Origin: an uncultured Roseobacter sp.
GTDB taxonomy: Bacteria > Pseudomonadota > Alphaproteobacteria > Rhodobacterales > Rhodobacteraceae
Reading direction: 5' to 3'
Assembly (NCBI RefSeq): GCF_947495275.1
Contig: NZ_CANLYL010000009.1
Coordinates: forward strand, 1 to 64,000
DNA: 64,000 nt
The notes under the pieces were generated by a model. It saw nothing but the letters and a program-made list of their open reading frames with translations. It was not told the DNA's origin and did no database searches. Below are positions 31,677 through 47,403 of this stretch, in pieces. Each line of letters opens with the position of its first letter. The first letter of the stretch is position 1. The translations under genes were made by a program, and so were the position numbers.

Positions 31677-31769
31677 CTTCTCGCGCTCCTGCCCCCGGGA
31701 GGCTTGCGCATGGGCGTGACTGAGGGGATAACCAGAGACAGCAAACAGAGATTTCGGGGAGAGATCATC

Positions 31770-32579
31770 ATGAGGAAACTAATGACGCTCGTCGCCATGG
31801 GCACGGCAATAGCAGCAGGATCGGTTTATGCGCAAAGCTGTTCCGATGGTAAAACACTGACCGAGGGAAAGCTGACGATCGCGACGGGGAACCCGGCCTA
31901 TTACCCCTGGGTCATCGACGACGCGCCGGAAAGCGGGCAGGGATTTGAAGCCGCAGTTGCCTATGCGCTGGCGGATGCGATGGGGTTTGCCAAGGAGGAT
32001 GTGGTGTGGACACGCACGTCGTTCGACCAGGCAATTCAGCCCGGTGCAAAGGACTTCGATGTTAACATGCAGCAGTTCTCGATCACACCGGAGCGCGATA
32101 AGGTCGTCGATTTTTCGCAACCCTATTACACCGCGCCCATGGCTGTGCTGGTGCGTGGCGGGGATGATCTGAATTCTGATCTCGCCGCCATGAAAGAGAT
32201 GAAATGGGGTGTGGTTGCGTCCACAACGGCATTGCCTGTGGTGATGGAAACTATCGCCCCTTCGTCCAGCCCGCTGGTTTATGATGACAATGCAAATGTC
32301 GTGGAGGCGATGAAGGCCGGACAGGTGGATGCCGCTTTGTTCGATTTGCCCACAGCGCTCTATCTCTCCGCGGTGGTTCTGGACGGCGGGCAGGTCTTGG
32401 GGCAATTCGCACCGGACGCAACGTCTGACCCTGATCATTTCGGTATGCTGATGACCGAAGGCAATCCACTCAAGGCATGCGTGGACGCGGCCCTTGCCGA
32501 TCTGACCGAAAATGGCACTCTGGCCGCGATTGAGGCGGAATGGTTGCAGGAAGCCACCGGTGTGCCGCTGATCAAGTAA
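31770..32579 (+). CDS. polar amino acid ABC transporter substrate-binding protein
   Basis: 269-aa family 3 periplasmic binding protein. Signal peptide MRKLMTLVAMGTAIAAGSVYA. Family blocks: GKLTIATGNPAYYPWV, GFEAAVAYALA, then ERDKVVDFSQPYY. Start at 31770 after GGGGAGAG; an in-frame ATG at 31704 lies outside the signal peptide. First gene of a three-gene importer. Confidence 0.9.
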   Translation: MRKLMTLVAMGTAIAAGSVYAQSCSDGKTLTEGKLTIATGNPAYYPWVIDDAPESGQGFEAAVAYALADAMGFAKEDVVWTRTSFDQAIQPGAKDFDVNMQQFSITPERDKVVDFSQPYYTAPMAVLVRGGDDLNSDLAAMKEMKWGVVASTTALPVVMETIAPSSSPLVYDDNANVVEAMKAGQVDAALFDLPTALYLSAVVLDGGQVLGQFAPDATSDPDHFGMLMTEGNPLKACVDAALADLTENGTLAAIEAEWLQEATGVPLIK

Positions 32580-32586
32580 GCCCCAG

Positions 32587-33396
32587 GTGAACCGAAGACA
32601 GGCATATGAAGCAGCCCAGCGGCGGCGGTCATTGACCGTGGCTGGGGTCAGCACAGTGATCGTTCTGGCAGCGATCATCCTGTTGGTGCCACTGGCGCCG
32701 GGATGGCCTCAGGTGAAGGCCAGCTTCTTTGATGGCGGTGTCTTTGCTCAGACATTTCCAACTTTGCTCAAGGCCTTTCTGATCGACGTGATGATCTTTG
32801 CGTGGTCAGTGCCCCTAATCCTGATGTTGGGGCTGGCAGTTGCGCTGGCGCGTGGCGCGATGGCGCCTGCGCTTTTTCCCCTGCGCATTTTTGGCGCAAT
32901 CTATGTCGATGTCTTTCGCGGCGTGCCTGTTGTGCTGACGATCTACCTGATTGGTTTCGGGGTGCCTGGCCTTGGACTGCCGCGCCCCTGGAATTCACCC
33001 TACATCTGGGGGACGGTCGCGCTGGTGCTGACCTATTCGGCCTATATAGCCGAAGTTCTGCGTTCCGGGATCGAAAGCATCCATGCCAGCCAGCGCAACG
33101 CTGCGATTTGTCTGGGGCTTTCTGAGCGGGATGCCATGCGCTACGTGATCCTGCCGCAGGCGATCCGCCGGGTTGTGCCGGCAAACATGAACATGCTGGT
33201 GGCCCTACAGAAGGACGTCGCACTCCTCTCTTTTATCGGCCCGGTGGAAATCCTGCGGCAGGCGGGCATCTACAAAAGCCTGTTGGCAAATTTTACACCC
33301 TACGTCGTCGCTGCTGTGATTTTTCTGATCGTTACCGTTCCGGCCACCCGCTACGCCGACCACCTGCTGAACAGGGATCGAAATGCCCGAAGCTAA
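32587..33396 (+). CDS. polar amino acid ABC transporter permease
   Basis: 269-aa HisM/GlnP-type permease, GTG start 7 bases after the binding-protein gene. About five hydrophobic segments; the family signature [18 protein letters not shown] and the EAA-like loop with [19 protein letters not shown] are intact. A single permease implies a homodimer. Its 3' end overlaps the ATPase gene by 14 bases. Confidence 0.9.
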
Positions 33397-34120
33397 ACTG
33401 TCCCTGCGTGGTGTCGTCAAATCCTTTGGTGAAAATGCGGTTCTGCGGGGCATTGATCTGGAGGTCTGCGAAGGAGAGATGATCTGCCTGATCGGTGCGT
33501 CTGGTTCCGGCAAATCAACCTTGCTGCGTTGCATAAACCAACTGGAGCCTATTGATGACGGTTCAGTATGGCTTGAGGGTCAGGATATATCGGAGCCCGG
33601 ATTGGAGTTAGGCCCGGTACGGCGACGTATCGGGATCGTATTCCAGTCCTACAATCTCTTTCCGCATATGTCGGCGCTTGAAAACGTGCTGTTGGCCCCG
33701 CGCCGGGTCTTGCAAGAAGAAGGTCGCGCATTGACGGCGCGTGCCGAGGCGCTTTTCCAGAGGTTTGGTCTGGATCTGCATATGCACAAATACCCCGATC
33801 AACTATCGGGGGGGCAACAGCAGCGCGTGGCGGTCATCCGGGCGCTGGCGATGCGCCCCGAAATCATGCTTTTTGATGAAATTACCGCCGCACTCGATCC
33901 GGAATTGGTTGGCGAAGTCCTGAACGTGTTACGTCAGCTACGGACCGAAGGGATGACCATGCTTTTAGCTACCCACGAGATGGGTTTCGCACGTGAGTTG
34001 GCGGACCGGGTGTGTTTCATGGATGGTGGTGTGATCGTCGAAGAAGGCACGCCGGAACAGATATTCTCAGCGCCGCAGGTGGTTCGGACCCAGGAATTCC
34101 TGAGGTCCGTTTTGCGGTGA
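33383..34120 (+). CDS. polar amino acid ABC transporter ATP-binding protein
   Basis: 245-aa GlnQ/HisP-type ATPase. Walker [10 protein letters not shown], signature [10 protein letters not shown]-loop ALDPE, switch ATHEM. Walker B reads [12 protein letters not shown] instead of the usual DEPTSALD, a conservative variant. Last gene of the operon; converges with the LysR gene 5 bases further on. Confidence 0.92.
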
Positions 34121-34125
34121 TCTTC

Positions 34126-34998
34126 TCAGCTAAGCTCCTGTAACAGTTCTGCGAATTCGATCGCCAGGCGACGCTGGCTTGATCGTTCGGCGACCAGAGC
34201 AGAGACGGAACGTTTGGCCGCCAAATCCACGATTGGTCGAAAAACGAGATCGCCATGAAGGTCCTGCACAACCGACCGTGGGAGGATCGTGACCCATTTG
34301 CAGGTCTTGATCATGCCGATCAGCGAAAATGTGTTGTGGGCCTGAATTCGGGTTTCTGACAGAGCCTGCCGCACGGTCTCGTGCTCGATGTTGTGACACA
34401 AATTGTTGCCGATGAAATCTGCCGTAATCACATCCTCCAGCCTGATCGACCCCGCGCAATTGGCCAGTGCATGATCGGGGGCGCAGGTCAGTCCAAAACG
34501 ATCCTCGAACAATACCCGGCCTTGAATGCCGTTGAGGGCGGGTGTCCCGGATGCAATGCCGATATCTGCCTGTCCGCGAACCAGCGCGTCAATCACCATG
34601 GCCGTGTCTGTATCGCGCATGTCGATTTTGAGCCCGCTGTGCCGCGTGATGAGCGCGTCGACGGCCAGAGGCACCAGGCGACCGGCGGCAGAGGGGATAG
34701 ATGCGATCCGGAGCAATCCCTTGGGGGAACTGGCGGAGGTCTCGATCTCCCGCACTGTTGCATCAAAATTGGTGACTTGCTGCTGCGCTAGGGCGAAAAC
34801 CTGTTGCCCGAGCGGGCTCAGTTGATTCTTGCGCTCGCCTTCGAACAGGCTCTGACCAAGGTGATCCTCAAGCTGTTTCAGCGTCATTGATACCGCAGAT
34901 TGAGTGCGCCCCATGCGGCTTGCCGCCTCTGCCAGATTGCCCGCCTGGGCGACGTGACTGAAACAACGCAACATTTCGATTTTGATCGGCAATTTCAA
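34126..34998 (-). CDS. LysR family transcriptional regulator
   Basis: 290-aa regulator with helix-turn-helix at about 18-40 (NLAEAASRMGRTQSAVSMTL) and a substrate-binding domain from about 90. The longest start is a TTG at 34998, with AGGA just upstream; an ATG at 34974 (MLRCFSHV) is the alternative. It is divergent from the aldehyde dehydrogenase operon and most likely controls it; an 8-bp inverted repeat overlaps the start region. Confidence 0.88.
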   Translation of the reverse strand: MKLPIKIEMLRCFSHVAQAGNLAEAASRMGRTQSAVSMTLKQLEDHLGQSLFEGERKNQLSPLGQQVFALAQQQVTNFDATVREIETSASSPKGLLRIASIPSAAGRLVPLAVDALITRHSGLKIDMRDTDTAMVIDALVRGQADIGIASGTPALNGIQGRVLFEDRFGLTCAPDHALANCAGSIRLEDVITADFIGNNLCHNIEHETVRQALSETRIQAHNTFSLIGMIKTCKWVTILPRSVVQDLHGDLVFRPIVDLAAKRSVSALVAERSSQRRLAIEFAELLQELS

Positions 34999-35025
34999 AA
35001 TTCCTGAAATTAGATTAAGGAATTT
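34998..35025 (+). promoter_or_regulatory. inverted repeat between LysR and ALDH operon (probable LysR box)
   Basis: Arms AAATTCCT (34998-35005) and AGGAATTT (35018-35025), 12 bases apart, lying between the two divergent genes. The spacing fits the dyad of a LysR recognition site. It overlaps the proposed regulator start, consistent with autoregulation. Confidence 0.55.
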
Positions 35026-35090
35026 GAGTTTGACTGATATTGCTCGTTGTGTCCACTCTTCTCCAAATGTCGACTTGGGAGAAACGCGTC

Positions 35091-36542
35091 GTGGCCGAAA
35101 GCAAATTGAATTTCATCGCGGGACAATGGATCGCTGGCGAAGGTGAAATCGAAAACCGGAACCCTTCCGATGTGTCCGATGTTATTGGCAATTTTGCTCA
35201 GGCAAGCGCTGGACAACTGGATGCGGCTCTGGAAAAGGCCCGCGACGCGCAGCGTATCTGGGCGGGTTACGGTCTCGAACGACGTCAGGCGGTCTTGCAG
35301 GCCATCGGTACGGAGCTGATTTCCCGATCAGAGGAACTTGGCAAGCTGCTCAGCCGTGAAGAGGGCAAGCCGCTGGCTGAAGGTAAGGGCGAGATTTACC
35401 GCGCCGGTCAGTTTTTCACCTATTATGCCGCCGAATGTCTGCGTCAGCTTGGTGAAAATGCGGACAGCGTCCGGGACGGCATCGAAATCGACGTGCGGCG
35501 CGAACCTGTAGGCGTGGTAGCGATCATTTCGCCATGGAATTTCCCGACTGCAACAGCCTCCTGGAAAATCGCGCCAGCGCTCTGCTACGGCAATGCGGTG
35601 GTCTGGAAACCGGCGAATATAACGCCCGCCTCCGCCGTAGCGCTGACCGAGATCATTGCCCGGCAGGATATTCCGGAAGGTCTGTTCTCTCTGGTCATGG
35701 GGTCCGGGCGTTCGGTTGGACAGCGGTTGGTCGAAAGCTCCGGTGTTAATGCGATCTCTTTCACCGGGTCCGTACCCGTGGGGCGGGGTATCGCCACGGC
35801 AGCGGTCGGAAACTTTACCAAGGTACAGCTGGAAATGGGGTCCAAGAACGCGCTGGCGGTGATGGATGATGCTGATATCGACCTTGCCGTGACGGTTGCG
35901 CTTGGCGGCGCGTTCGGCGGAACCGGGCAAAAATGCACGGCCTCTTCGCGGCTGGTGGTCCATGAGGCCATCCACGATGCGTTCGTCGAAAAGCTTGTCG
36001 TGGGTGCGCAGGCGATGACAGTGGGCCATGCGCTGGAAGCCGGAACCCAGATCGGTCCTGTTGTCAGTGAAGCGCAATTGCTTGAAAATCTTGGCTATGT
36101 TGATCTGGGCAAATCTGAAGGGGCAGAGCTTGCCTTTGGCGGTGCGCGCTTGTCGCTTTCTCATGACGGGTATTACATGTCACCCGGTGTATTTTTGAAC
36201 ACGACAAACGATATGCGGATCAACCGCGAAGAGATGTTTGCGCCGCTGACCTCGGTTATTCGGGTGGGCAGCTATGATGAAGCATTATCCGTCGTGAATG
36301 ATACCAGCTTCGGGCTGACCTCCGGGATCGTGACCCGGAGCCTCGCGCGCGCAACCCATTTCCGCCGAAATGCGCGCACCGGGGTTGTGACTGTCAACCT
36401 GCCAACGGCCGGGACCGATTATCATGTGCCCTTTGGCGGGCGCGGCGAAAGCTCCTATGGACCGCGCGAACAGGGTAGGGCAGCCGCCGAATTTTATACA
36501 ACCGTCAAGACCGCCTATATCAGCGCGGGGGCGCCGGAATAA
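35091..36542 (+). CDS. aldehyde dehydrogenase, NAD(P)-dependent
   Basis: 483-aa ALDH-superfamily enzyme oxidising an aldehyde to a carboxylate. Catalytic C282 (GQKCTAS) and general base E248 (LEMGSKN) are present; the ISPWNFP and FTGSVPVGR cofactor blocks are intact. Closest in style to alpha-ketoglutarate-semialdehyde/succinate-semialdehyde type enzymes. The GTG at 35091 is preceded by GGGAGA; the frame extends to a TTG at 35040. First gene of a tightly overlapping operon (TAATG junction with the M19 gene). Confidence 0.9.
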   Translation: MAESKLNFIAGQWIAGEGEIENRNPSDVSDVIGNFAQASAGQLDAALEKARDAQRIWAGYGLERRQAVLQAIGTELISRSEELGKLLSREEGKPLAEGKGEIYRAGQFFTYYAAECLRQLGENADSVRDGIEIDVRREPVGVVAIISPWNFPTATASWKIAPALCYGNAVVWKPANITPASAVALTEIIARQDIPEGLFSLVMGSGRSVGQRLVESSGVNAISFTGSVPVGRGIATAAVGNFTKVQLEMGSKNALAVMDDADIDLAVTVALGGAFGGTGQKCTASSRLVVHEAIHDAFVEKLVVGAQAMTVGHALEAGTQIGPVVSEAQLLENLGYVDLGKSEGAELAFGGARLSLSHDGYYMSPGVFLNTTNDMRINREEMFAPLTSVIRVGSYDEALSVVNDTSFGLTSGIVTRSLARATHFRRNARTGVVTVNLPTAGTDYHVPFGGRGESSYGPREQGRAAAEFYTTVKTAYISAGAPE

Positions 36543-37519
36543 TGCGTATCGATGGCCTGCAATACGCCAATTGGTCGGAGAAGATTTTTCGGCAGATGCG
36601 CGATGGGGATGTCGACGCGGTTCATGTGACCATCGCTTACCATGAGACATTTCGCGAAACGGTGCTCAATTTTGAACGCTGGAACCGCTGGTTCGAGGTG
36701 CATTCCGACCTGATCCTCAAAGGGACCACCGCGGCCGATATTGATCTGGCCCGCGAAACCGGGCGCACGGCTATTTTTTTTGGTTTCCAGAACCCAAGCC
36801 CGATCGAAGACGATATCGGATTGGTTGAGATCGTGCACAGCCTCGGCGCGCGGTTCATGCAGCTGACCTATAACAACCAGTCCCTGCTGGCCACGGGATG
36901 TTATGAGGCCGAGGACACCGGGATCACCCGCATGGGCCGTCAGGTGATCCGCGAGATGAACCGCGTAGGCCTGGTGGTGGACATGAGCCATTCTGCAGAT
37001 CGCTCGACCATTGAAGCTGCTGAGGTATCTGAGCGTCCCATCGCAATCACCCATGCCAACCCCTATGATTGGTCGCCCGCCCTGCGCAACAAGAAAGACG
37101 ATGTGATCCGCACGGTCACCGAAGGCGGCGGGATGTTGGGATTTTCTCTTTATCCGCACCACCTGAAAGACAAATCCGACTGCTCATTGCAAAGCTTTTG
37201 CGAAATGATCGCCCGCGCAGCCGAGCGATATGGCGTCCAACACCTGGGGATTGGCTCGGACCTTTGCCAGGATCAACCTGATAGTATCGTTGAATGGATG
37301 CGCACGGGCCGCTGGACCAAAGAGATCGACTATGGCGAAGGGTCCGCCGCTGCCCCGGGGTTTCCCGAAATGCCCGATTGGTTTCGCGACAACCGCGATT
37401 TTGGTAACATCGAAGCCGGGTTGCGGGAGGTTGGTATGAATGACGATGAGGTTGGCGGTATCATGGGGGGTAACTGGTATCGCTTCTTTTCGGACAACTT
37501 CGGAAAGGTCACTGGATGA
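36542..37519 (+). CDS. M19 membrane-dipeptidase homologue with altered metal site
   Basis: 325-aa TIM-barrel hydrolase of the peptidase M19 family. In renal dipeptidase the metals are held by His-x-Asp near the N-terminus, one Glu and two His. Here the HxD site reads DGLQY (L6, Y8), the Glu is Q83 (FGFQNP), while H150 (DMSH), H171 (ITH) and D240 (IGSD) remain. So part of the binuclear centre is lost and dipeptidase activity is doubtful; another amidohydrolase-type or single-metal reaction is likely. Co-translated with ALDH (TAATG) and the next gene (ATGA). Confidence 0.85.
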   Translation: MRIDGLQYANWSEKIFRQMRDGDVDAVHVTIAYHETFRETVLNFERWNRWFEVHSDLILKGTTAADIDLARETGRTAIFFGFQNPSPIEDDIGLVEIVHSLGARFMQLTYNNQSLLATGCYEAEDTGITRMGRQVIREMNRVGLVVDMSHSADRSTIEAAEVSERPIAITHANPYDWSPALRNKKDDVIRTVTEGGGMLGFSLYPHHLKDKSDCSLQSFCEMIARAAERYGVQHLGIGSDLCQDQPDSIVEWMRTGRWTKEIDYGEGSAAAPGFPEMPDWFRDNRDFGNIEAGLREVGMNDDEVGGIMGGNWYRFFSDNFGKVTG

Positions 37520-39201
37520 AGACGAACGCGGCTGATACCCGGCGGCGTTCCCCGAACACCGTCATGCGCCTCAAACGGCTTGGGTCGTTGCATCAATGCA
37601 GACTCAGCTTCATGCGGGTTCTTATGCGTTGTATGGCCCGCGAAAGCTGGCAATTCACCCGCCGCCTGTTTGACATCGACGACAATGGCGTGGGCCGGGC
37701 AGTTTACACTGCGACTGGCCCGGAACGCTCCTATTCGCTCATTGCTTTTGCGCATGACCTTCCGGCAGATCAAAGATCCGACAGGGTTATCGCCGAAGCC
37801 TGGGACGCAACGTTCACCCTCTTTGACGGCATCCCCACCGCAGAGGATATTGACCGCCTTGCGCAAAACGTCCCTCTTCAGGAAGCGGGGCGGATACAGG
37901 AAACCGAGTTGTCGCTGTCGCGGGCAAACCGGTCTGTCCGGCTGTGGGAGCATGTTGTGGCAGCCTTGGCGTCGGGGCGTCAGCCAGACGTCAGCAAGAT
38001 CGATGCGGTCGGATATCTGATGCGGACGACCGCGGTCTACGGGTCGGGGAAATTTGGCGCTGCTGATCGTGAAAAAATCGCCGACCGCCCAGAGCTTTCG
38101 GTGCCCTTCCAGGCAGAAATGCTGTCGGTTTATCTGACCCGCGTTTTCGTGCGTGATCTGGTGCAACATATGGCCCGAGTGAGGGGCGGCTCTGAGGCGG
38201 TGGTGTTGCACCCGGAGATTGCCCAGCGTCTGGGGATCGGGAATTCCACCGGGTTGGGGATGGCACCCTATATCGTCAATCACCCGGTTCTTTTCAACAA
38301 CTGGATCATGGCCCGCGAAGAGGCAATTGCACGGGTCTGTGCGTTAGATACGGCGAGCGCGGAGGAGGCCACCACATTCCGGATAATCCTTCAACGCAGC
38401 GAAGGCTCAATCGCGGTGTGGCATTCGGATCATCCCGCGCAGATCAGGAAACTCGCAGCGCTTCGACAGGATATCGCAGCGCTCAAAGAATATCTTGCCG
38501 GAGATGATTTGCGCCACCTTGCGCCCTGGGCGCGGCTATGCGCCTGGGCGGCGGAAAATCTGAGTGAAGAGGGGCAAGAACTGGTCGCCTCGCTGATCCT
38601 GGAGCCTTATCCCGATCTGGTGGACGGTCTGGCCCATTGTATGTCGGACAGTAACGCCGACGCGTTTCGGATTGATGGGTCGATGCCGGTCGCGGAGGTG
38701 ATGAAGCTCATCGCGAATGCGTTTGACTGGGCGCTGGAAAAAGACTGGACCGCGCCAGAAAACTGCGCGCGCGCCTGGTACGTTTCCGAAGAAAAACTGG
38801 AGCCAAGACTGGGCGAGCGGTTTGACGAACCAATTGAGGAATATGAACAGCCTCTGGCACCCGCGCGTGACGCCGCTGCGGCTTCGGCTGCACTGGAGGG
38901 CTGGGCGTCTGAGAGTCCCATCGCCGATTTTCTGCTGCGCCATCCAGAACACCGGCATACGGTGCGTCGGGCCCAGATGAGCCTTGTCGCACCTTATGGT
39001 GAAATCCGTGACAATACGATCAGCGACAAGGTTCTGCCGATTGACATGCTGCGCGCCAAGCTTTCGTTTTTCGGGGCGACGCATTTTGATCCCCGATCAG
39101 ATCGGTGGGTCCGCATTTGCATGTATGCCGGTGCGCCTTATCCCGAAACGCTGACCACTGAAAACTGCGACCTCTGGGTTTATCCGGAGCTTGTATCGTG
39201 A
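37516..39201 (+). CDS. uncharacterised 561-aa protein in ALDH/M19 operon
   Basis: I do not recognise this family. Soluble, no signal peptide or transmembrane helix. It has a basic N-terminus, mixed alpha-rich composition, a Gly-rich segment GNSTGLGMAPYIVNHP near residue 245 that could bind a ligand, and a C-terminal part with several Trp. Start overlaps the M19 stop (ATGA) and its own stop overlaps the next GTG (GTGA), so all four genes are translationally coupled. Probably an enzyme or subunit working with the DUF3726-like protein. Confidence 0.85.
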   Translation: MKTNAADTRRRSPNTVMRLKRLGSLHQCRLSFMRVLMRCMARESWQFTRRLFDIDDNGVGRAVYTATGPERSYSLIAFAHDLPADQRSDRVIAEAWDATFTLFDGIPTAEDIDRLAQNVPLQEAGRIQETELSLSRANRSVRLWEHVVAALASGRQPDVSKIDAVGYLMRTTAVYGSGKFGAADREKIADRPELSVPFQAEMLSVYLTRVFVRDLVQHMARVRGGSEAVVLHPEIAQRLGIGNSTGLGMAPYIVNHPVLFNNWIMAREEAIARVCALDTASAEEATTFRIILQRSEGSIAVWHSDHPAQIRKLAALRQDIAALKEYLAGDDLRHLAPWARLCAWAAENLSEEGQELVASLILEPYPDLVDGLAHCMSDSNADAFRIDGSMPVAEVMKLIANAFDWALEKDWTAPENCARAWYVSEEKLEPRLGERFDEPIEEYEQPLAPARDAAAASAALEGWASESPIADFLLRHPEHRHTVRRAQMSLVAPYGEIRDNTISDKVLPIDMLRAKLSFFGATHFDPRSDRWVRICMYAGAPYPETLTTENCDLWVYPELVS

Positions 39202-39830
39202 ACCTCTCGCTTAACGAGGTTGAGGCGACTGCGCGAAAGGCTGCGCGAGGTGCGGGCTATCCTTGGGGCCTCGCGGAAGAAACGGGCAAGGCGACGCGCT
39301 GGCTCTGCGCGCAAGGTCTTGAGGGATGTGCTGTTCTCGCCCGTCTGCTGGCCCGCGTTGATGGGGCAACGATCTCTGACTTGTCGCCGAAAGTTGATGA
39401 GCTGATATGGCAGGCTCCGGGACCACACCTGTGTCCGCTGGTGACAGGGGCCGCCCTCTCGGACCGAGTGAGCCAGTTCGACCATGGGGCTTTCAGAACG
39501 GGTCCGATTGCCGAGCCGTGCCTGTTGTTTCCGTTTGTTTCTTATCTTGCCCGGAAAGTGGAACGCGTCGTCGAGATCGAGTGGCGGGGGGGCGGCGCTA
39601 TTTTTGACGCAGGCCAGATGGGGCTGACCGGCGCGACCAGCGATTTTGCGGATCAGGTCGCCATCCGCTTTGGCGGAACTTTGAGGTCGCCTCGGGCGCG
39701 CTGCACCAGAGCTGATCCGGGAAGTTCCGCGTGGGACGCACTTTTGGCATTCGCTCACCGAACCTATGCACCGGCGACCGAAGAGAGCCGTCTAAAAGGC
39801 GCGGGCGCAGAGATGGGCGGTTCCGAATGA
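39198..39830 (+). CDS. DUF3726-like protein
   Basis: 210-aa soluble protein, GTG start coupled to the upstream stop. The opening NLSLNEVEATARKAARGAGY and PWGLAEETGKATRWL resembles the DUF3726 family as I remember it; function unknown. Likely a subunit or partner of the 561-aa protein, given absolute coupling of the genes. The C-terminus (from about 180) is variable and Ala/Gly-rich. Confidence 0.75.
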   Translation: MNLSLNEVEATARKAARGAGYPWGLAEETGKATRWLCAQGLEGCAVLARLLARVDGATISDLSPKVDELIWQAPGPHLCPLVTGAALSDRVSQFDHGAFRTGPIAEPCLLFPFVSYLARKVERVVEIEWRGGGAIFDAGQMGLTGATSDFADQVAIRFGGTLRSPRARCTRADPGSSAWDALLAFAHRTYAPATEESRLKGAGAEMGGSE

Positions 39831-39862
39831 GCGGGCCGAGCCAGAAACCATGAGGTAAGTAC

Positions 39863-39879
39863 AAGGCCCACCGGGCCTT
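39863..39879 (+). other. hairpin between DUF3726-like gene and BCCT gene
   Basis: Stem AAGGCCC / GGGCCTT with loop ACC. The outer bases also allow GTAAG (39856-39860) to pair with CTTAC (39877-39881). Followed by TACATAAAAATT rather than a T-run, so a weak terminator or an mRNA-end stabiliser in the operon. Confidence 0.5.
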
Positions 39880-39951
39880 ACATAAAAATTGCGCATGAAT
39901 GGTTGAGACAAAGCCAAGCTGCGCGTGCTTCAAATTTTAGGGAGGAAGCAA

Positions 39952-41784
39952 ATGTCCGTCAAACCACCATTCACGGATCTGGAGATCAACAGATCAACGC
40001 AGGGCTTTTACGAGGGGCACAGCCTCGAAATCGCTTTGCTCAGCAAGGCGATCATGATCGGCCTGGTCATTTGGGCGTTGGTGTCACCCGCCAATGCCAA
40101 TGGCGTTCTCGGTAGCCTGAATTGGCAAATCCTCGAAGGCTTCAACAGTTTCTATATCATCATCGTAGGGTTTTTTGCGTTCTTCCTTTTTGTGGTCGCC
40201 GCCTTACCGCAGACCGGAAAACGGGTGATGGGACGCCCGGGTGCTGGCAAGGAATTCTCGAATTTCTCATGGTTCTCGATGATGTTCGGCGCCGGTCTGG
40301 GTGTCGGGCTGATGGTGTTTGCGACAGCCGAACCGCTGGGTTTGTGGGGCTCCAATCCCATCGTTGTGGCCGGGGATGTCGCGCCCAACAGCCAGGAAGC
40401 GCTGCAATCAGCCTATCGCTACACGTTTGCCCATTACGGTTTCCATGCTTGGGCGATCTATGTGGTGACGGGCCTCTCCTTGGCTTATTACGCCTATACC
40501 CGCGACATGCCATTGACGATCCGAACCGCGCTGACGCCGCTCTTTGGTGGCCTGATGAACGGGATTTTGGGTCATATCGTGGATGTGCTGGGCGTGGTCG
40601 CGACGATCCTTGGCGTATCGGTTACAATCGGATTTGGAATCTCACAATTCATCGACGGCATGTATGCCATTACGGGCATGGAATGGATGATGAATATAAC
40701 GGGTGACGCGCCGACCCCGGGGACTGTTGGTTTGATTGCGGGGCTGATCGTGATCATGAGCCTTTCAATCATCTCGGCGGTTTCAGGTGTGGGGCGCGGG
40801 GTCAAATATCTGTCGAACCTGAACCTGGTGCTGTCCCTGATACTGCTCTTCACCTTTGTCCTTTTTGGTTCTTTCCTCTTCGCGATGACAACCTATGCCA
40901 CGGCGTTGGTCGACTATATCCTGAATTTTGTATCGCTTAGTTTCGGTGCCTATGGACCCCAATCGCCCGATCAGTTTACCGCAGCACTTTCTGCCGAGGC
41001 AGCGCCCTATGCGGATGCGCTGCGCGCGGGGGCCACAAATGCCTGGGGGTCGTTTGACGGGTTCCGGTCCGGCCTGGAAGGGGAAGCCGCCAATCTCTCA
41101 GAAGATGCGCTCAAAGCGGCCTATGCGGCGGGTGAGCCAGGTCGCCAGTTCGGCTGGCAAGCAGGTTGGACAACTTTCTATTGGGCCTGGTGGATTGCGT
41201 TTTCGCCATTCGTTGGCCTTTTCCTCGCGCGCATTTCGCGGGGTCGCACGGTGCGCGAGTTCATCATTGGATGTGTCGTGGCACCGGCACTGGTCTGCTT
41301 TGCCTGGATGACGATTCTGGGCGGTACAGCGATTGATCTTGAACTGACAGGTGGTGCAGAGGGCGCAATCATCGGCGCCTCCAACACCGCAAAGCTCTTT
41401 GTCACGCTGGGCGAAATGATCTCAGGCGGGTTTCTGTCCGCCATCACGATCATGTGCGTCGTTCTGATCATGACCTTTCTTGTGACCTCGGCAGACTCGG
41501 GGATTCTGGTGATGAACACCATCATGTCAGGGGGCGACCAGGAAGTCGGCAACAAGCACAAGATCGTCTGGGGCGTTATCCTGACGGCGGTGATCGGGAC
41601 CTTGCTGGTGGCCGGCAAATCTGGTGGCGCGGACCCGATGGAGGCGCTGCGCAATGCCATGATCATCGGGGCACTGCCCTTCACCATGGTGATGGGGCTG
41701 ATGTGTATTGCGCTTGCAAAGGCTATGTATCGCGATGGTCTGAGGTCAAAGTCAGGTGACTTGGCCACAGAGCCAGCAGAATGA
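39952..41784 (+). CDS. BCCT family betaine/carnitine/choline transporter
   Basis: 610-aa inner-membrane secondary transporter with about 12 helices for quaternary-ammonium or other zwitterionic compounds. The signature YWAWWIAFSPFVGLFLARIS and the glycine stretch GAGLGVGLM in TM3 are present. ATG at 39952 follows AGGGAGGA. It lies downstream of the ALDH/M19/unknown operon and probably brings in that pathway's substrate. A 9-bp hairpin follows. Confidence 0.92.
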   Translation: MSVKPPFTDLEINRSTQGFYEGHSLEIALLSKAIMIGLVIWALVSPANANGVLGSLNWQILEGFNSFYIIIVGFFAFFLFVVAALPQTGKRVMGRPGAGKEFSNFSWFSMMFGAGLGVGLMVFATAEPLGLWGSNPIVVAGDVAPNSQEALQSAYRYTFAHYGFHAWAIYVVTGLSLAYYAYTRDMPLTIRTALTPLFGGLMNGILGHIVDVLGVVATILGVSVTIGFGISQFIDGMYAITGMEWMMNITGDAPTPGTVGLIAGLIVIMSLSIISAVSGVGRGVKYLSNLNLVLSLILLFTFVLFGSFLFAMTTYATALVDYILNFVSLSFGAYGPQSPDQFTAALSAEAAPYADALRAGATNAWGSFDGFRSGLEGEAANLSEDALKAAYAAGEPGRQFGWQAGWTTFYWAWWIAFSPFVGLFLARISRGRTVREFIIGCVVAPALVCFAWMTILGGTAIDLELTGGAEGAIIGASNTAKLFVTLGEMISGGFLSAITIMCVVLIMTFLVTSADSGILVMNTIMSGGDQEVGNKHKIVWGVILTAVIGTLLVAGKSGGADPMEALRNAMIIGALPFTMVMGLMCIALAKAMYRDGLRSKSGDLATEPAE

Positions 41785-41790
41785 AAGATT

Positions 41791-41818
41791 GCGCCGGGCT
41801 GGATTGCCTGCCCGGCGC
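41791..41818 (+). terminator. hairpin between converging BCCT and RpiR genes
   Basis: Perfect 9-bp stem GCGCCGGGC / GCCCGGCGC with a 10-base loop, starting 6 bases after the BCCT stop. The T-tract is weak (TTCCC). Its place between convergent genes suggests a bidirectional transcription stop. Confidence 0.55.
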
Positions 41819-41861
41819 TTCCCACTAATTGGCCTGACCGCCAGCAATTGTCTTGGCTTGG

Positions 41862-42797
41862 TCAGTCGCCCAAAGGCTGCGGGCCAGTTCGCCCATGATA
41901 GGCGGTCAGGGACGCCCTGATCCTCCGCAGGTTTTCAAGTGTTTCCGCCGACATCTCCTGAGCGACCGACATCGCAAGCGCATCAATCAGCGTAAGATGC
42001 GCATAGCGCGAGGCGGTTGGTTTGTAGATGTCGCTGTCTTCGGGAATATCGACGGCGATCTGGATGTTGGTCACTGCCGCCAACCGCGTATCTGGTTTGG
42101 TGATACAGATTGTTGTGGCACCATACCCCCGGGCGATTTCGGCGGCACCTACGATTGCATCTGCCTCCCCGCTCGCGGATATGAGAAACAGAACATCATC
42201 GCGGGTAAGGGTCGCTGCTCTCATTTGCAAAAGATAGCTGTCACTGGTGGCAAAGGACGGAAAGCCAAGGCGAAAAAACCGATTTGCCGCATCATGGGCA
42301 ACCATCGAAGAGCCGCCGCCAATCCCGGCGAACAACAGGTGCCTTGTGGTCAGCAGCGCATTTTTCGCAGCGTTGAGCGCCTGGGTGTCGATCTGCTGGC
42401 GCATGGCATTTGTCGTCGCTAACAGCGCACCCAGAACTTGATTTAAGGCGGCGCTACTGCCCAGGGCTGACTGTTCTGCCTCGGCGGACAAGTACTGCAT
42501 GCTGACAGCTAGGTTCTGGACCAGCCGGAGCTTGAACTCCCGGAAGCCGTCGCACCCAAGCGAGCGGCAGAATCGGACAACGGTCGGCTTGCTGACACCA
42601 CAGCGTTCGGCCAAGTCACCAATTGTGATGGCGCTGATGTCTTCAAGGTTCTGCTTCACATAATCAGCGACCTTTTGTTCCTGAGCAGCGAGGCTGCCGT
42701 CATGCAGGTGCAGCGCCGAGATGACATCCACAACACCCTTGCGCCCTTTTTTGGGCGGCAGATCAGCGGGTTGGAGTTCGGGCGTGTCGTCGGACAA
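41862..42797 (-). CDS. MurR/RpiR family transcriptional regulator
   Basis: 311-aa regulator. HTH_6 domain near 50-100 (GDLAERCGVSKPTVVRFCRS) and SIS sugar/ligand-binding domain near 150-285 (LFAGIGGGSSMVAHDAANRF, then LISASGEADAI). Divergent from the TRAP operon. Three 15-bp palindromes lie in the shared intergenic region, so it very likely represses the TRAP-M81-DSD-RidA genes and itself. Confidence 0.9.
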   Translation of the reverse strand: MSDDTPELQPADLPPKKGRKGVVDVISALHLHDGSLAAQEQKVADYVKQNLEDISAITIGDLAERCGVSKPTVVRFCRSLGCDGFREFKLRLVQNLAVSMQYLSAEAEQSALGSSAALNQVLGALLATTNAMRQQIDTQALNAAKNALLTTRHLLFAGIGGGSSMVAHDAANRFFRLGFPSFATSDSYLLQMRAATLTRDDVLFLISASGEADAIVGAAEIARGYGATTICITKPDTRLAAVTNIQIAVDIPEDSDIYKPTASRYAHLTLIDALAMSVAQEMSAETLENLRRIRASLTAYHGRTGPQPLGD

Positions 42798-42822
42798 TTT
42801 TTGGCCTCATGGATGTGATCTG

Positions 42823-42837
42823 TGTAATTGAGTTACA
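42823..42837 (+). promoter_or_regulatory. RpiR operator copy 1
   Basis: TGTAATTGAGTTACA, one of three copies of the consensus TGTAAYTNRGTWACR in this intergenic region. 26 bases before the RpiR start codon, so it may mediate autoregulation. Confidence 0.65.
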
Positions 42838-42895
42838 TATTGGGCGGGTCATACACAATGGAATGGGCCATTTTAACCCACTGCTCACCCTTTCA

Positions 42896-42910
42896 TGTAA
42901 CTAGGTAACG
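42896..42910 (+). promoter_or_regulatory. RpiR operator copy 2
   Basis: TGTAACTAGGTAACG, the least symmetrical of the three copies. It lies roughly midway between the divergent genes. Confidence 0.6.
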
Positions 42911-42946
42911 TATATTGGTTGATTTTGTGGAATTTTGACCTCACTA

Positions 42947-42961
42947 TGTAACTTAGTTACA
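42947..42961 (+). promoter_or_regulatory. RpiR operator copy 3
   Basis: TGTAACTTAGTTACA, a perfect palindrome (7-bp arms around one base) 26 bases before the dctQ start. Placed to block transcription of the TRAP operon. Confidence 0.7.
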
Positions 42962-42986
42962 GATTCTGCAAAAAGGGGGGCGGAAA

Positions 42987-43505
42987 ATGCGCAGCTGGGC
43001 GGTCACAGCCAGTGCAAAGCTCAACACAGTGGTCGAGGCTATCGCCGCTGGCTTGATGCTGGCGCTTGTGCTCGATGTCTGGCTTGGCGTTGTCGACCGC
43101 TACTATTTTCACTGGCAATTACCCTGGCCAGAGGCTTTGGCAAGGTATCTGATGATCTGGGCGGCGATGCTTGCGGTATCTTCAGGCGTGGCGCGCCGAA
43201 ATCACATTGGCCTGACGTCTTTTATCATGGTTTTGCCATATCGTATCAGACGTGCCGCTCTGATCTGTATGGACGTCCTGACACTTGCACTGTTTTTATA
43301 CGTGGCATGGTTCGGGGTCGGTTTCGCTTTTGGCGGTGCCACGCGTCATGCGATGATTTTCGGCGCCAGCCTCGCCCCCTTTTATGCCGCTATTCCCGTC
43401 GCTGCCGCTTTGTCCTCGATCCAGCTTGTACTGGTGCTTTTGCGGGACCTCGGCACGCATATCGATGATCCGCCTTTCGAAGTGCCGCAGGAGGAAGCAA
43501 CATGA
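42987..43505 (+). CDS. TRAP transporter small permease (DctQ)
   Basis: 172-aa membrane protein with four predicted helices, typical of DctQ subunits. The GVARRNHIGLTSFI segment matches the family (SGxARRxxHI). Preceded by a GGGGCGG site. Its stop overlaps the dctM start (ATGA). Part of a periplasmic-binding-protein-dependent secondary uptake system driven by an ion gradient. Confidence 0.88.
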   Translation: MRSWAVTASAKLNTVVEAIAAGLMLALVLDVWLGVVDRYYFHWQLPWPEALARYLMIWAAMLAVSSGVARRNHIGLTSFIMVLPYRIRRAALICMDVLTLALFLYVAWFGVGFAFGGATRHAMIFGASLAPFYAAIPVAAALSSIQLVLVLLRDLGTHIDDPPFEVPQEEAT

Positions 43506-44785
43506 TTGTTGCCCTTACTTTTGTGCTGCTCATCGTGCTGGGGATGCCGATCGGTTTTGCAATCGGGTTTGCTGGCGTGGTCGGCCTGATCGACATGGGT
43601 GGCACCCAATTTCTGGCCATTGGACCAAGCAAGATCTTCAATGGGCTCAATATTTTCCCGTTTCTGGCAATGCCGTTTTTCATTCTTGCCGGCGAGATCA
43701 TGAACGATATCGGCATTACCAGCCGGTTGGTCAAACTGGCGCAGGTTCTGGTCGGGCGATTTCGCGGCGGTCTGGCGCATACCAACATGCTGGCATCGGT
43801 TTTCTTTGCGGGTCTGACGGGATCAGCGACAGCCGATGCTGCGGCTTTCGGGCGGACGTTGGTCCCTGCGATGGTCAAGGAAGGGTACAGTCGCGACTAT
43901 GCCTGCGCGGTCACGGCGGCGGGCTCGATCATTGGCCCAACCATTCCGCCGTCAGGTCTGATGGTGGTTTACGGCTCGCTCATGGGTGTGTCGATTGCGG
44001 GCTTGTTTGCGGCGGGTGTTCTGCCCGGGTTGGTGATTTGCCTGGTTTGCATGGCCGTCATTGCAATTGGGGGTAAACGCGAGAACCTGCCCAAAGCCTT
44101 GCGCGGGGCGACACTCGGCGAGATCTGGCAGACATTCCTGTCTTCGCTCACGGCCCTCGCCATGCCGGTCATCATCCTCGGTGGCATTCTGGGAGGCATT
44201 GTTACCCCAACCGAAGCGGCATCCATCGCGGTGGCATACGCGCTGTTCATCGGGGCTTTCATATACCGCACGCTCACTTTCAAGAGTTTCTACGGCATGC
44301 TGGTTCGCACGGCGCGCATCACAGGTGTGATCTTTGTCATCATCGCGTTTGCAAGCATCCTGGGCTGGTGGATGAGTTTCGAACGCATCCCGCAGCTGAT
44401 CGCGGAAACCGTCCTGGGATTGTCCGACAATCGCTACGTCGTGATCGCCATCATCGTGGGGCTGCTGCTCGTTGTCGGCATGGTCATGGACATCACTGCG
44501 ATTTTGATCATCCTTGCGCCAGTGTTGGTGCCCCTGACCGAGCAGGTGGGGCTTGAGCCCATTCATGCGGGGATCATTTTTGTGCTGGCGCTCAACATCT
44601 CGCTGATGACACCCCCGGTGGGGGCCTGTCTGTTCGTGCTGTCATCGGTGACCGGCGAGACGCTCGAGCGGATCTCGCTAAAACTGATGCCCTTCCTCGT
44701 GGCGGAAATAACGATCCTCTTTGCTTTTGCCTTCTGGGATGACGCGGCCCTCTGGCTGCCCAGATTGCTTGGATTTGCCCAATAA
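43502..44785 (+). CDS. TRAP transporter large permease (DctM)
   Basis: 427-aa membrane protein with about 12 helices. Family stretches include GFAIGFAGVVGL, ADAAAFGRTLVPAM and IIGPTIPPSGLMVVYG. It catalyses the transport step together with DctQ. 33 bases before dctP. Confidence 0.93.
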   Translation: MIVALTFVLLIVLGMPIGFAIGFAGVVGLIDMGGTQFLAIGPSKIFNGLNIFPFLAMPFFILAGEIMNDIGITSRLVKLAQVLVGRFRGGLAHTNMLASVFFAGLTGSATADAAAFGRTLVPAMVKEGYSRDYACAVTAAGSIIGPTIPPSGLMVVYGSLMGVSIAGLFAAGVLPGLVICLVCMAVIAIGGKRENLPKALRGATLGEIWQTFLSSLTALAMPVIILGGILGGIVTPTEAASIAVAYALFIGAFIYRTLTFKSFYGMLVRTARITGVIFVIIAFASILGWWMSFERIPQLIAETVLGLSDNRYVVIAIIVGLLLVVGMVMDITAILIILAPVLVPLTEQVGLEPIHAGIIFVLALNISLMTPPVGACLFVLSSVTGETLERISLKLMPFLVAEITILFAFAFWDDAALWLPRLLGFAQ

Positions 44786-44818
44786 CCTCATATCAGAAAC
44801 TCAACAGGAGAGAAAAAG

Positions 44819-45859
44819 ATGAAACATATACTGACCGGGACTTTTCTAGCTGCCTCGCTCGTTGCCGGAAGTGCGCTGGCCGAGGGCGGCGTCATCAAGT
44901 TTGGCCATGACAACAAAACAGACCCTTTTGAAAACCCCGCCCATGCTTGCACGGCCGTGTTCTCAAATCTGGTGACTTCGGGGACAAATGGCAGCGTTAC
45001 AGTTGAAGTGTTCGGGTCGAACCAATTGGGGTCTGCAGCGGAACATGTCCAACAGGTGCGCGATGGGTTGATCCAGGCAACGCTGACATCAACAGGTGCC
45101 CTGGCGAGTTACTACCCGCGCATTGATGTGCTGAACCTGCCCTTTGCGTTCACCGGAAATGCCGCCACATATCCGGTTTTTGATGGTGCCTTCGGCAAGG
45201 CGCTGGCGGCCGATATCGAGGCGGAACTCGGGGATGTTGTGGTCTTGGGGTTCCCGGACACCGGTGGGTTCTTTGCCGTCACCAACTCGCAACGTCCAAT
45301 TGCCAAGCTCGAAGATTTTGACGGTATCCGCATCCGGACCATGACGTTGCCGTCTCATCAGAAAATCGTACAGGCACTTGGTGCCGAGGCTTATCCGCTT
45401 TCATGGGGCGAGGTCTATTCCGGCCTTCAGACCGGCGTGATCGATGGGCAGATGAACCCGGTTCCGATTATTTCCTTCGCGAATTTTGCGGAAGTTCAGC
45501 AGTACCTGACCCTCACCAACCATCTGTTTTCGCCCTATACCTTCATGATCAACCGAGCCTTTTTCGAAGGTCTTTCCGAAAGCGAGCAGGCAACAATTCG
45601 GACAGCGGCAGAAAACTGTGTCACCGCCAGCCGGGGTTTGTCGCGGATCATCGAGGCCTCTGATCGGGGTCTTGCAGGTTTGATGGACAATATTGAGGTC
45701 ACAGCGCTGACAGATGAGCAGCGCGAAAAAATGGCCTCAGTAACCCAACCTGCCTTCAAATCTCACGTGGCGGAAAATCTGGATGCAACCGCCGGCGCAC
45801 TGCTGGGGCAATTCGAACAGGCCGTGGCCGAAGCAAACGCATCGACTTATCTCGACTAG
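44819..45859 (+). CDS. TRAP transporter substrate-binding protein (DctP)
   Basis: 346-aa periplasmic binding protein. Signal peptide MKHILTGTFLAASLVAGSALA. The helix around residue 170 (IRTMTLPSHQKIVQALGAEA, containing the ligand-contacting Arg) and SWGEVYSGLQTGVIDGQMNP are hallmark DctP regions, the arginine implying a carboxylate-bearing ligand. AGGAGAG site upstream. Ligand identity is unknown. Confidence 0.92.
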   Translation: MKHILTGTFLAASLVAGSALAEGGVIKFGHDNKTDPFENPAHACTAVFSNLVTSGTNGSVTVEVFGSNQLGSAAEHVQQVRDGLIQATLTSTGALASYYPRIDVLNLPFAFTGNAATYPVFDGAFGKALAADIEAELGDVVVLGFPDTGGFFAVTNSQRPIAKLEDFDGIRIRTMTLPSHQKIVQALGAEAYPLSWGEVYSGLQTGVIDGQMNPVPIISFANFAEVQQYLTLTNHLFSPYTFMINRAFFEGLSESEQATIRTAAENCVTASRGLSRIIEASDRGLAGLMDNIEVTALTDEQREKMASVTQPAFKSHVAENLDATAGALLGQFEQAVAEANASTYLD

Positions 45860-45871
45860 AACGTGTGGGCA

Positions 45872-45894
45872 TCAGGCGGGTCTTGCCCGCCTGA
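45872..45894 (+). other. hairpin between dctP and M81 gene
   Basis: Perfect 9-bp stem TCAGGCGGG / CCCGCCTGA with loop TCTTG, 12 bases after dctP. A T5 run follows only 9 bases later. Likely attenuates read-through from the abundant transporter transcript into the catabolic genes, or protects the dctP mRNA end. Confidence 0.65.
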
Positions 45895-45936
45895 ACGCTG
45901 GTTTTTGACCTTACCGAACGGATGCAGGAAATGAAC

Positions 45937-47403
45937 ATGCGGATATTCTGTGCGTCGCTGGCGACCGAGACCAATACCTTCTCGCCCCTGCGCACAGATT
46001 TTTCCGATTTCGAGCAGAGTTTCTACGCGGCACCCGGTGAGCATCCTCAAACACCCACGCTTTGCAGTGCGATTTTTCCGGCGCTGCGCACTCGTGCCGC
46101 GACGGATGGTTTTGACTTGGTCGAAGGGACTGCAACCTGGGCCGAACCTGGTGGTCTGATCAACGCCGGTACCTGGCGACGACTACGGGATGAGATTCTG
46201 GCTCAGGTTCGCGCTGCCATGCCATTGGATGGCGTCGTTTTGGGGCTTCACGGTGCCATGATCGCAGAGGGGTGTGTTGATTGCGAAGGCACATTGATCG
46301 AGGAGGTACGTGATATCGTGGGCAGTAAGACGATCATTGGTGTCAGTTTTGATCCCCACAGCCACCTGAGCGACAAACGTGTCCAGAACGCCGATGTGAT
46401 CACCGTGTTCAAGGAATTCCCCCACACGGATTTTGTTGCTGCGGGGGAGGCTTGTGTTGATCTTACCTTGCGCGCCATTCGCAAGGAAATCACCCCTGTC
46501 CTTTCGGTCTTTGATGTCCGGATGATCGAAATCCTCCCGACAAGTCGCCACCCGATGCGCGGTTTCGTCGACAAGATGACGGCGCTCGAAAAAGCTGGCG
46601 AGGTGTTGTCGGTCTCTGCAATTCACGGGTTTATGGCGGGCGACTCCCCTGATTTGGGGGCCAAAATTATTGTAGTGACCGATAATCAACACGCGGACGG
46701 AGACCGGATTGCCGAAGCGTTGGGGAGGGAGCTGTTCTCATTCAGGGGGCAAACCAAACCGGAGTTCATGTCGGCAGAAGCCGCCCTTCGAAAGGCAGGT
46801 GAGGCACCCGCGGGCCCGGTGGTTGTCGCGGATGTCTGGGACAATCCCGGCGGCGGTGTTGCCGGAGATTCCACCTTGGTGTTGCAAGAGGCCATGGCGC
46901 AGAATCTGACCTCGGCGGCATTTGGGACGATTTGGGACCCGATGGCGGTGCGCCTGTGTCATGCAGCCGGAGAGGGTGCTGCGCTAGATCTGCGATTTGG
47001 CGGGAAAACATCTGCCAAGGCGGGTGACCCCATAGATGCGCGGGTCAAAGTCATCCGCAATCAACGCGGCGCGGTTCAGAGTTTTGGCAGCTCGGTTGTG
47101 CCTCTCGGCGATTGCTCGGTCATCCGGCTGGGGGGGATTGACGTGGTATTAAATTCCAATCGAAGCCAGGCATTTTCTCCGGATCTGTTCACGAACCTTG
47201 GCATCGACATTGCTGAAAAGAAGGTTCTGGTGGTCAAATCCACCAACCATTTTCACGGCGCTTTCGCTGAAATTGCATCACAAATCATCTATGCCGCCGT
47301 CGATGGCCCCTATCCAAGTGATCCATCAACAACGCCTTATCAGCGGTTATCCCGTGCGATCTGGCCAATTTGCGACGATCCGCATCAGAGGAAACCAATA
47401 TGA
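45937..47403 (+). CDS. M81 family metallopeptidase (MlrC-like)
   Basis: 488-aa protein of the MlrC/M81 family, named from a microcystin-degradation hydrolase. Typical blocks: ATETNTFSP at the N-terminus, GVSFDPHSHLS with the metal-ligand Asp/His pair, HTDF, and VADVWDNPGGG. The real substrate is unknown; in TRAP/BCCT operons the family probably opens a small amide or cyclic imide rather than peptides. An AGGA site fits the ATG at 45937 best; ATGs at 45931 and 45922 are alternatives. Its stop overlaps the next ATG (ATGA). Confidence 0.88.
   Translation: MRIFCASLATETNTFSPLRTDFSDFEQSFYAAPGEHPQTPTLCSAIFPALRTRAATDGFDLVEGTATWAEPGGLINAGTWRRLRDEILAQVRAAMPLDGVVLGLHGAMIAEGCVDCEGTLIEEVRDIVGSKTIIGVSFDPHSHLSDKRVQNADVITVFKEFPHTDFVAAGEACVDLTLRAIRKEITPVLSVFDVRMIEILPTSRHPMRGFVDKMTALEKAGEVLSVSAIHGFMAGDSPDLGAKIIVVTDNQHADGDRIAEALGRELFSFRGQTKPEFMSAEAALRKAGEAPAGPVVVADVWDNPGGGVAGDSTLVLQEAMAQNLTSAAFGTIWDPMAVRLCHAAGEGAALDLRFGGKTSAKAGDPIDARVKVIRNQRGAVQSFGSSVVPLGDCSVIRLGGIDVVLNSNRSQAFSPDLFTNLGIDIAEKKVLVVKSTNHFHGAFAEIASQIIYAAVDGPYPSDPSTTPYQRLSRAIWPICDDPHQRKPI

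Follow-up and report, generated by a model that had tools for sequence, protein, structure and literature searches.

A conserved operon around U561

We analysed a 64,000-nucleotide stretch of contig NZ_CANLYL010000009.1 (positions 1 to 64,000; assembly GCF_947495275.1, an uncultured Roseobacter sp.), called the window throughout. At 34126-41784 it holds a divergent gene for a LysR-type regulator, followed by genes for an aldehyde dehydrogenase (ALDH), an M19-family hydrolase, a protein of 561 amino acids (U561), a DUF3726 protein and a BCCT-family transporter (Table 1). An earlier note on this DNA had described four overlapping genes with a BCCT carrier behind them. Direct reading of the sequence confirms this: the open reading frames for ALDH, M19, U561 and DUF3726 share one direction and meet in the junctions TAATG, ATGA and GTGA, and Pfam gave the families. 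The joint action of the four genes, which the note had concluded, is likewise supported. The operon probably serves the catabolism of homarine (N-methylpicolinate), a metabolite common in plankton, with the LysR protein as probable regulator of the pathway. It most likely belongs to the homarine system published in 2026, as a variant that lacks a linked Ldh_2 gene.

Table 1 Genes of the operon region in the window
Product	Position	Strand	Remarks
LysR-type regulator	34126..34998	-	HTH_1 and LysR_substrate in Pfam; divergent from operon
ALDH	35091..36542	+	GTG start; Pfam Aldedh 7e-149
M19-family (amidohydrolase superfamily) hydrolase, 2i5g type	36542..37519	+	Pfam Peptidase_M19 6e-70
U561, 561 aa	37516..39201	+	no match in Pfam or NCBIfam, nor in the PDB by sequence or fold
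DUF3726 protein, 210 aa	39198..39830	+	PF12525, 7e-24
BCCT-family betaine-type transporter	39952..41784	+	Pfam BCCT 4e-142

A scan of genome contigs returned 164 relatives of U561, of which the best 80 loci were kept; by title, these are mostly Rhodobacterales of the Roseobacter group. Thirteen of them lack room on one side and 67 have room on both. The co-occurrence outside this strain, on which the earlier note had staked its proposal, is indeed found: M19 lies upstream of U561 and DUF3726 directly downstream in all 80 loci, which is not chance, and with the core kept throughout, a curiosity of one strain is rejected. ALDH is linked in 68 of the 80 loci, a LysR gene on the minus strand lies upstream in 67, and a gene of the Ldh_2 family follows DUF3726 in 70 (61 of the 67 with room on both sides). 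The BCCT type of the window is found near U561 in 29 loci and a second BCCT type in 13; either type is present in 34 of the 67 loci having room. Linked transporters, where present, are of betaine type, that is BCCT or glycine-betaine ABC transporters, the latter replacing BCCT beside the set on two rhizobial plasmids. In one locus (L138), a RidA-family gene is inserted between ALDH and LysR.

With the own genome included, all 19 genomes of the genus have U561; in the samples of the family, the class and the phylum the counts are 91 of 198, 33 of 240 and 22 of 299. The U561-bearing genomes of the class sample include ones of 1.2 to 1.6 Mb. Matches also occur in 168 plasmid records, 64 of them from Sinorhizobium, 58 from Phaeobacter and 2 from Vibrio. 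LysR, ALDH, M19, U561, DUF3726 and Ldh_2 are annotated as such on plasmids of Ruegeria TM1040 (genes TM1040_RS02315 to RS02345), Phaeobacter, Pararhizobium, Aminobacter and Aliiroseovarius. In the phylogenetic tree, the U561 of the window belongs to a supported set of 19 together with rows from Ruegeria, Leisingera and Aliiroseovarius (99/95), and the U561 proteins of two congeners (L205, L207) fall in a different set. This split of congeners indicates a probable transfer of the operon from one lineage to another. The placement of the long branches L145, L149, L130, L148, L161 and L146 is unsure; these rows are also within the alignment of 69 U561 members used below.

The proteins of the operon

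According to the earlier note, two members of the operon had no known function. This stands for U561 and does not for DUF3726: the remote-homology search and structure prediction that the note had suggested left U561 without a match and led from DUF3726 to Ldh_2. Pfam and NCBIfam contain no match for U561, and the search against PDB sequences gave nothing useful (best E 0.91 with the single sequence, 0.14 with a profile). Its AlphaFold2 model, on the whole a confident one, has a predicted local distance difference test score (pLDDT) of 81.4 and a predicted template-modelling score (pTM) of 0.86, and the fold search with Foldseek found no relative in the PDB (best E 0.35) or among viral models (best E 0.91). 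When 43 relatives were compared with Pfam, the best matches were to DUF4192 (E 0.004, two members) and Spectrin (0.0063, one member); the family matched by most relatives was Spectrin_4, with 7 of 43. These weak matches are taken as chance. That U561 might be a diverged Ldh_2 protein was rejected as well (hhalign probability 0.3%). Conserved in at least 93% of the 69 members are seventeen arginines, Asp97, several glutamates and His256 as the single histidine, and no cysteine. With only one near-invariant histidine, an iron oxygenase of the two-His-one-carboxylate type is not favoured. Many of the invariant residues lie in stretches of low model confidence (174-184, 245-260 and 423-438), which is the pattern expected if the active site closes over its ligand.

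The evidence that connects DUF3726 with Ldh_2 comes from sequence and from structure prediction. The L135 protein, which comes from a different class of the same phylum, matches both DUF3726 (4.7e-11) and positions 1-135 of Ldh_2 (1.3e-10; 41.4 bits against a cut-off of 38.8), and most other members tested alongside it match DUF3726 alone. For the AlphaFold2 model of the window's DUF3726 protein (pLDDT 90.3), ranks 1-27 of the Foldseek search are all Ldh_2-type structures, with a best E of 4.2e-5, 14 entries with E up to 0.001 and template-modelling scores of 0.36-0.57. The alignment of DUF3726 with Ldh_2 by hhalign is weaker (P 1.5e-4 over 44 columns, probability 52%). DUF3726 thus has the fold and the N-terminal signal of the Ldh_2 family (PF02615, with DpkA and YiaK), but it falls short of a full-length member, having 210 residues instead of about 335, and the SHG motif is absent. 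Because of this size and the missing motif, we read it as a shortened Ldh_2 relative and not as a working dehydrogenase, and we propose that it is a partner subunit of U561. A literature search on the name DUF3726 found no mention of it. New here are this reading of DUF3726, the finding that U561 has no match in sequence or fold, and the occurrence of the three core genes in places where the remainder of the operon is missing.

The ALDH is nearest to the NCBIfam models for 2,5-dioxovalerate and alpha-ketoglutaric semialdehyde dehydrogenase, at scores below their cut-offs (475 vs 750 bits and 470 vs 770 bits); the model for piperidine-6-carboxylate dehydrogenase scores 284 bits, also below its cut-off. 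The M19 protein clearly satisfies its family profile (236 bits, cut-off 26). M19 dipeptidases bind two metal ions with an HxD motif near the start and a bridging glutamate. In the window's protein Gln83 is aligned with the glutamate of the IEG motif of gliJ, and the N terminus reads MRIDGLQYANW, with no HxD, so the canonical binuclear site is not present; His150, His171 and Asp240 are kept. The loss of the canonical active site that the earlier note had seen is therefore real, but it is not peculiar to this protein, since 2i5g, the closest relative of solved structure (1.9e-54, with almost the whole protein aligned), has the same changes in the first metal ligands in the alignment. The altered site is thus a trait of the subfamily. 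2i5g is PA5396 of P. aeruginosa from the dimethylglycine region, and its gene neighbours are unlike those of M19 in the window. For M19 a role as deformylase is proposed, and for BCCT the import of homarine; the latter is recognised by Pfam BCCT and stays below the cut-off of the NCBIfam equivalog for glycine betaine BCCT transporters (389 vs 650 bits).

The linked Ldh_2 product of the relatives is a plain member of its family. Its best relative in the PDB is delta1-piperideine-2-carboxylate reductase (2.7e-56), an enzyme for cyclic 2-imino acids that also acts on N-methyl-imino acids. An Ldh_2 gene is not present beside the operon of the window and was not seen in the displayed part of the congener operons L205, L206, L207 and L209; there are thus operons of this type that have no linked Ldh. 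Contig 8 of the own genome does encode an Ldh_2 relative (L171:7676-8731), which is 42% identical to the linked type and 61% identical to an Ldh of a different genome of the family (L152), where its gene overlaps M19. All 19 genomes of the genus have the contig 8 type. Within the family sample, 33 genomes have the linked type and 41 the contig 8 type, together 73 genomes, at an identity limit of 56% that was chosen after viewing the lists, which had been transcribed by hand (the next values were 45% and 48%). U561 occurs in 72 of these 73 genomes and in 19 of the 125 others, a comparison that is not corrected for kinship and takes the total as 198 genomes, of which the Ldh searches covered 197. 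Forty of the 41 genomes with the contig 8 type also have U561, and in 7 of the 41 the two genes are, judged by eye, at most 1.5 kb apart. It is possible that the contig 8 Ldh stands in for the missing linked enzyme.

A proposed route for homarine and its alternatives

A sarcosine-oxidase-like cluster lies within the fetched stretch of 12 of the 80 loci and also in the operon stretch on plasmids of Aliiroseovarius, TM1040 and Phaeobacter, in several cases with an AraC-type regulator. In all 13 members of this protein cluster the large subunit is nearer to the copy on contig 4 of the own genome (64-75%) than to the two other copies (41-57%). Contig 4 encodes, each above its cut-off, a trimethylamine monooxygenase, a trimethylamine N-oxide demethylase and a type III glutamine-synthetase-like protein, and an AraC regulator gene adjoins the sarcosine-oxidase-like (Mgd-type) copy. 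This arrangement is much like that of R. pomeroyi, in which, according to PMC13390433, tmaR is located upstream of mgdABCD in a cluster of the same kind. Judged by large-subunit similarity and the context on contig 4, the cluster near the operon is most likely an N-methylglutamate dehydrogenase, MgdABCD, and most like the copy in the trimethylamine cluster. The own genome thus appears to have N-methylglutamate dehydrogenase on contig 4, outside the window. That article, citing Ferrer-Gonzalez et al. 2026, states that Mgd takes part in homarine catabolism.

The formation of N-methylglutamate from homarine requires loss of ring carbon C6 and oxidation of C5, and hence a cut between C5 and C6. 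What we observed is the gene set, its conservation, the enzyme families and, in relatives, the presence of Ldh_2 and the Mgd type near the operon; the substrate, the order of steps, this cleavage and the role of the deformylase are inferred. As a whole, the route is put forward tentatively, on the model of trigonelline degradation. BCCT would import homarine, and U561 together with DUF3726 would open the pyridinium ring between C5 and C6 to give an N-formyl-N-methyl dehydroglutamate semialdehyde (homarine + O2 + 2H -> C7H9NO4). ALDH would oxidize the C5 aldehyde (adding H2O and removing 2H), and M19 would remove the N-formyl group by hydrolysis, with formate as product. The Ldh_2 reductase, linked in most relatives and here possibly represented by the contig 8 copy, would add 2H to 2-(N-methylimino)glutarate and so form N-methylglutamate, from which the N-methylglutamate dehydrogenase of contig 4 would produce glutamate and a C1 unit. 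Without the reduction, the imine would give 2-oxoglutarate and methylamine, and a gmaS/mgs/mgd-type cluster in the own genome could take care of the methylamine. Since the other enzymes map onto aldehyde oxidation, deformylation and reduction, U561 and DUF3726 are left for the ring cut. The pair may even be a new kind of pyridinium-ring-opening enzyme, a reading that we hold to be somewhat less likely than not: U561 would be catalytic, with a fold not found in the PDB, and DUF3726, having lost its NAD part, would provide an imino-acid pocket in which homarine is held by its picolinate end. The core would then be older than the homarine operon and serve other N-heterocycles where it stands apart.

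The homarine operon described by Ferrer-Gonzalez and co-workers in 2026 (Nat Microbiol 11:1531-1546) is reportedly homABCDER, with a regulator and five genes, and is said to occur in Rhodobacterales, SAR11 and SAR116 and to form N-methylglutamate directly. The window differs from it in having LysR and four linked genes, with no Ldh_2. The earlier note had considered a betaine-like substrate, with homarine as one hypothesis, and had spoken of a candidate new catabolic system. The first idea is supported and the guess of homarine probably right; the idea of a new system is probably wrong, as the gene set appears to fit the published pathway. A similar logic is known from trigonelline degradation by TgnABCDE, where ring opening by TgnA/TgnB, an oxygenase system of known kind, precedes aldehyde oxidation and formamide hydrolysis. 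In contrast, U561 matched no known family or fold. In PMC8269262, TgnA/TgnB, the ring-opening pair of that pathway, are judged unlikely to act on homarine. R. pomeroyi is reported to draw homarine down fast.

Several observations speak against homarine catabolism by this route. R. pomeroyi is reported to have grown more poorly on homarine than on trigonelline, and gene by gene the identity with the operon of 2026 is presumptive. Only 12 of 80 loci have the Mgd type near the operon, some U561 modules show neither Ldh nor BCCT nearby, and 19 of the 91 U561 genomes of the family have neither Ldh type. U561 shows no known oxygenase signature, and its conserved residues are not in keeping with the usual metal-dependent oxygenases. 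As for the contig 8 Ldh, it reads CGLYY where the linked type has SHGLAY and may lack the catalytic histidine, which we take to be the His of this motif. Of the 19 genus genomes, 12 have this gene within 30 kb of a U561 of a second group (see below), so it may be a partner of that module, to which it would then belong; the own genome has one U561 only and none of the second group.

The alternatives overlap, so that their odds are not meant to add up to one. The one that survives best, although we consider it unlikely, is that M19, U561 and DUF3726 form a general module for a common cyclic or N-substituted metabolite, older and wider than the operon, which was recruited for homarine in Roseobacters. 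A second, lower-scoring group of U561 relatives exists indeed. In ten of its loci looked at, M19 was recognised in 8 (not in L154; L203 is ambiguous), the part displayed showed neither Ldh_2 nor BCCT, and an ALDH-like gene adjoins in L201. A third, distant group in Sinorhizobium combines IclR, U561, a small gene, a dipeptidase and an ABC transporter, and two genomes (G083, G530) each hold two U561 groups. However, the contig-8-type Ldh is also found in 18 of the 30 genomes whose best U561 scores below 750 bits, as if a similar pathway ran there from scattered genes, and the DUF3726 part of the second group is tentative, since the short DUF3726-like neighbours stay below the Pfam cut-off (E 0.13 in L153, 0.0017 in L154). 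Given these other kinds of loci, the presence of U561 by itself does not reliably mark, let alone prove, the use of homarine.

Some further features of these groups were noted. The second-group loci (L153, L154 and L196-L203) have a short DUF3726-like gene, and many lie beside apparent truA and ycjX genes (names by eye). The distant U561 proteins of L160 and L161 (about 30% identity) come from plasmids of Neorhizobium and Sinorhizobium, where genes for an IclR regulator and an ABC transporter lie next to them, and the Sinorhizobium locus also has a dipeptidase, an aminotransferase, a semialdehyde dehydrogenase and a RidA protein.

Somewhat less probable still is a route from the same operon and substrate that needs no O2. 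The pyridinium ring would be reduced or hydrated, M19 would open the N-C6 bond and ALDH would make a six-carbon acid, leading to 2-oxoadipate-type compounds and methylamine; N-methylglutamate would arise only from methylamine via GmaS/Mgs. U561 without known oxygenase features, the derivation of DUF3726 from a reductase family and the shared cluster of Mgd- and GmaS-type genes in the own genome are all in line with it. But the ALDH is nearest to the five-carbon 2,5-dioxovalerate dehydrogenases (475 bits) and not to piperidine-6-carboxylate dehydrogenase (284 bits), both below cut-off, and the imino-acid-type Ldh_2 linked in 70 of 80 loci fits a direct formation of N-methylglutamate.

Another betaine as substrate, be it trigonelline or proline or hydroxyproline betaine, is improbable. 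The ALDH resembles alpha-ketoglutaric semialdehyde dehydrogenase, the enzyme used in the hydroxyproline route, and the linkage of BCCT and glycine-betaine ABC transporters as well as the presence of U561 in plant-associated rhizobia, distant as it is there, would suit such compounds. R. pomeroyi is also reported to use trigonelline, and Phaeobacter porticola encodes, 4-8 kb past the operon, a ring-hydroxylating dioxygenase and a PDR/VanB-type oxidoreductase. By name, however, no TgnA/TgnB-type pair is annotated in five plasmid regions, and no demethylase, epimerase or deaminase of the proline betaine route lies inside the operon there. Moreover, trigonelline carries its carboxylate at C3, so that a 2-imino-acid reductase would presumably be useless. 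The P. porticola genes (L156:16750-19680), kilobases past the operon, comprise the dioxygenase, an ALDH, a LysR regulator and the PDR/VanB-type oxidoreductase; they are possibly a second betaine route. A link to ectoine breakdown is rejected as highly improbable: PALP, M24/creatinase and Asp/Glu-racemase-like genes occur in L004 and relatives of all three in L017 and L054, but these are 3 of 80 loci, two of them (L004, L054) without ALDH.

According to PMC8269262, homarine accounts for up to 3% of particulate carbon; a correction states that the concentrations had been overstated (PMC10134881). The identity of homarine degraders and their mode of breaking the ring bear on the return of this carbon and nitrogen to the water. 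U561 and DUF3726 are the proteins that most need biochemistry, with the latter explained by its probable Ldh_2 ancestry.

Flanking sequences and neighbouring genes

BCCT is separated from DUF3726 by a gap, and by eye ATG 39952, behind GGAGG, is a likelier start than GTG 39925. In the gap, at 39863-39879, a perfect inverted repeat (AAGGCCC-ACC-GGGCCTT) with no T-run behind it was found by eye; it might divide two transcripts. The repeat is absent from the list of the terminator-like scan of 34900-42000. The scans of this range gave 6 sigma-70-like sites (2.8 in shuffles) and 7 terminator-like sites (7.7 in shuffles) and were not used.

The genes after the operon, at 41862-48455, encode an RpiR-type regulator (minus strand), a TRAP transporter (DctQ-DctM-DctP), an M81/MlrC metallopeptidase and a D-serine-dehydratase-like protein of the pyridoxal phosphate-dependent kind, and are probably a separate catabolic unit. 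On the other side, at 31704-34120, an amino-acid-type ABC transporter (solute-binding protein of family 3, permease and ATPase) is encoded beside LysR. A related transporter set (68-73%) also adjoins the LysR gene of the operon in L036, there in the opposite direction.

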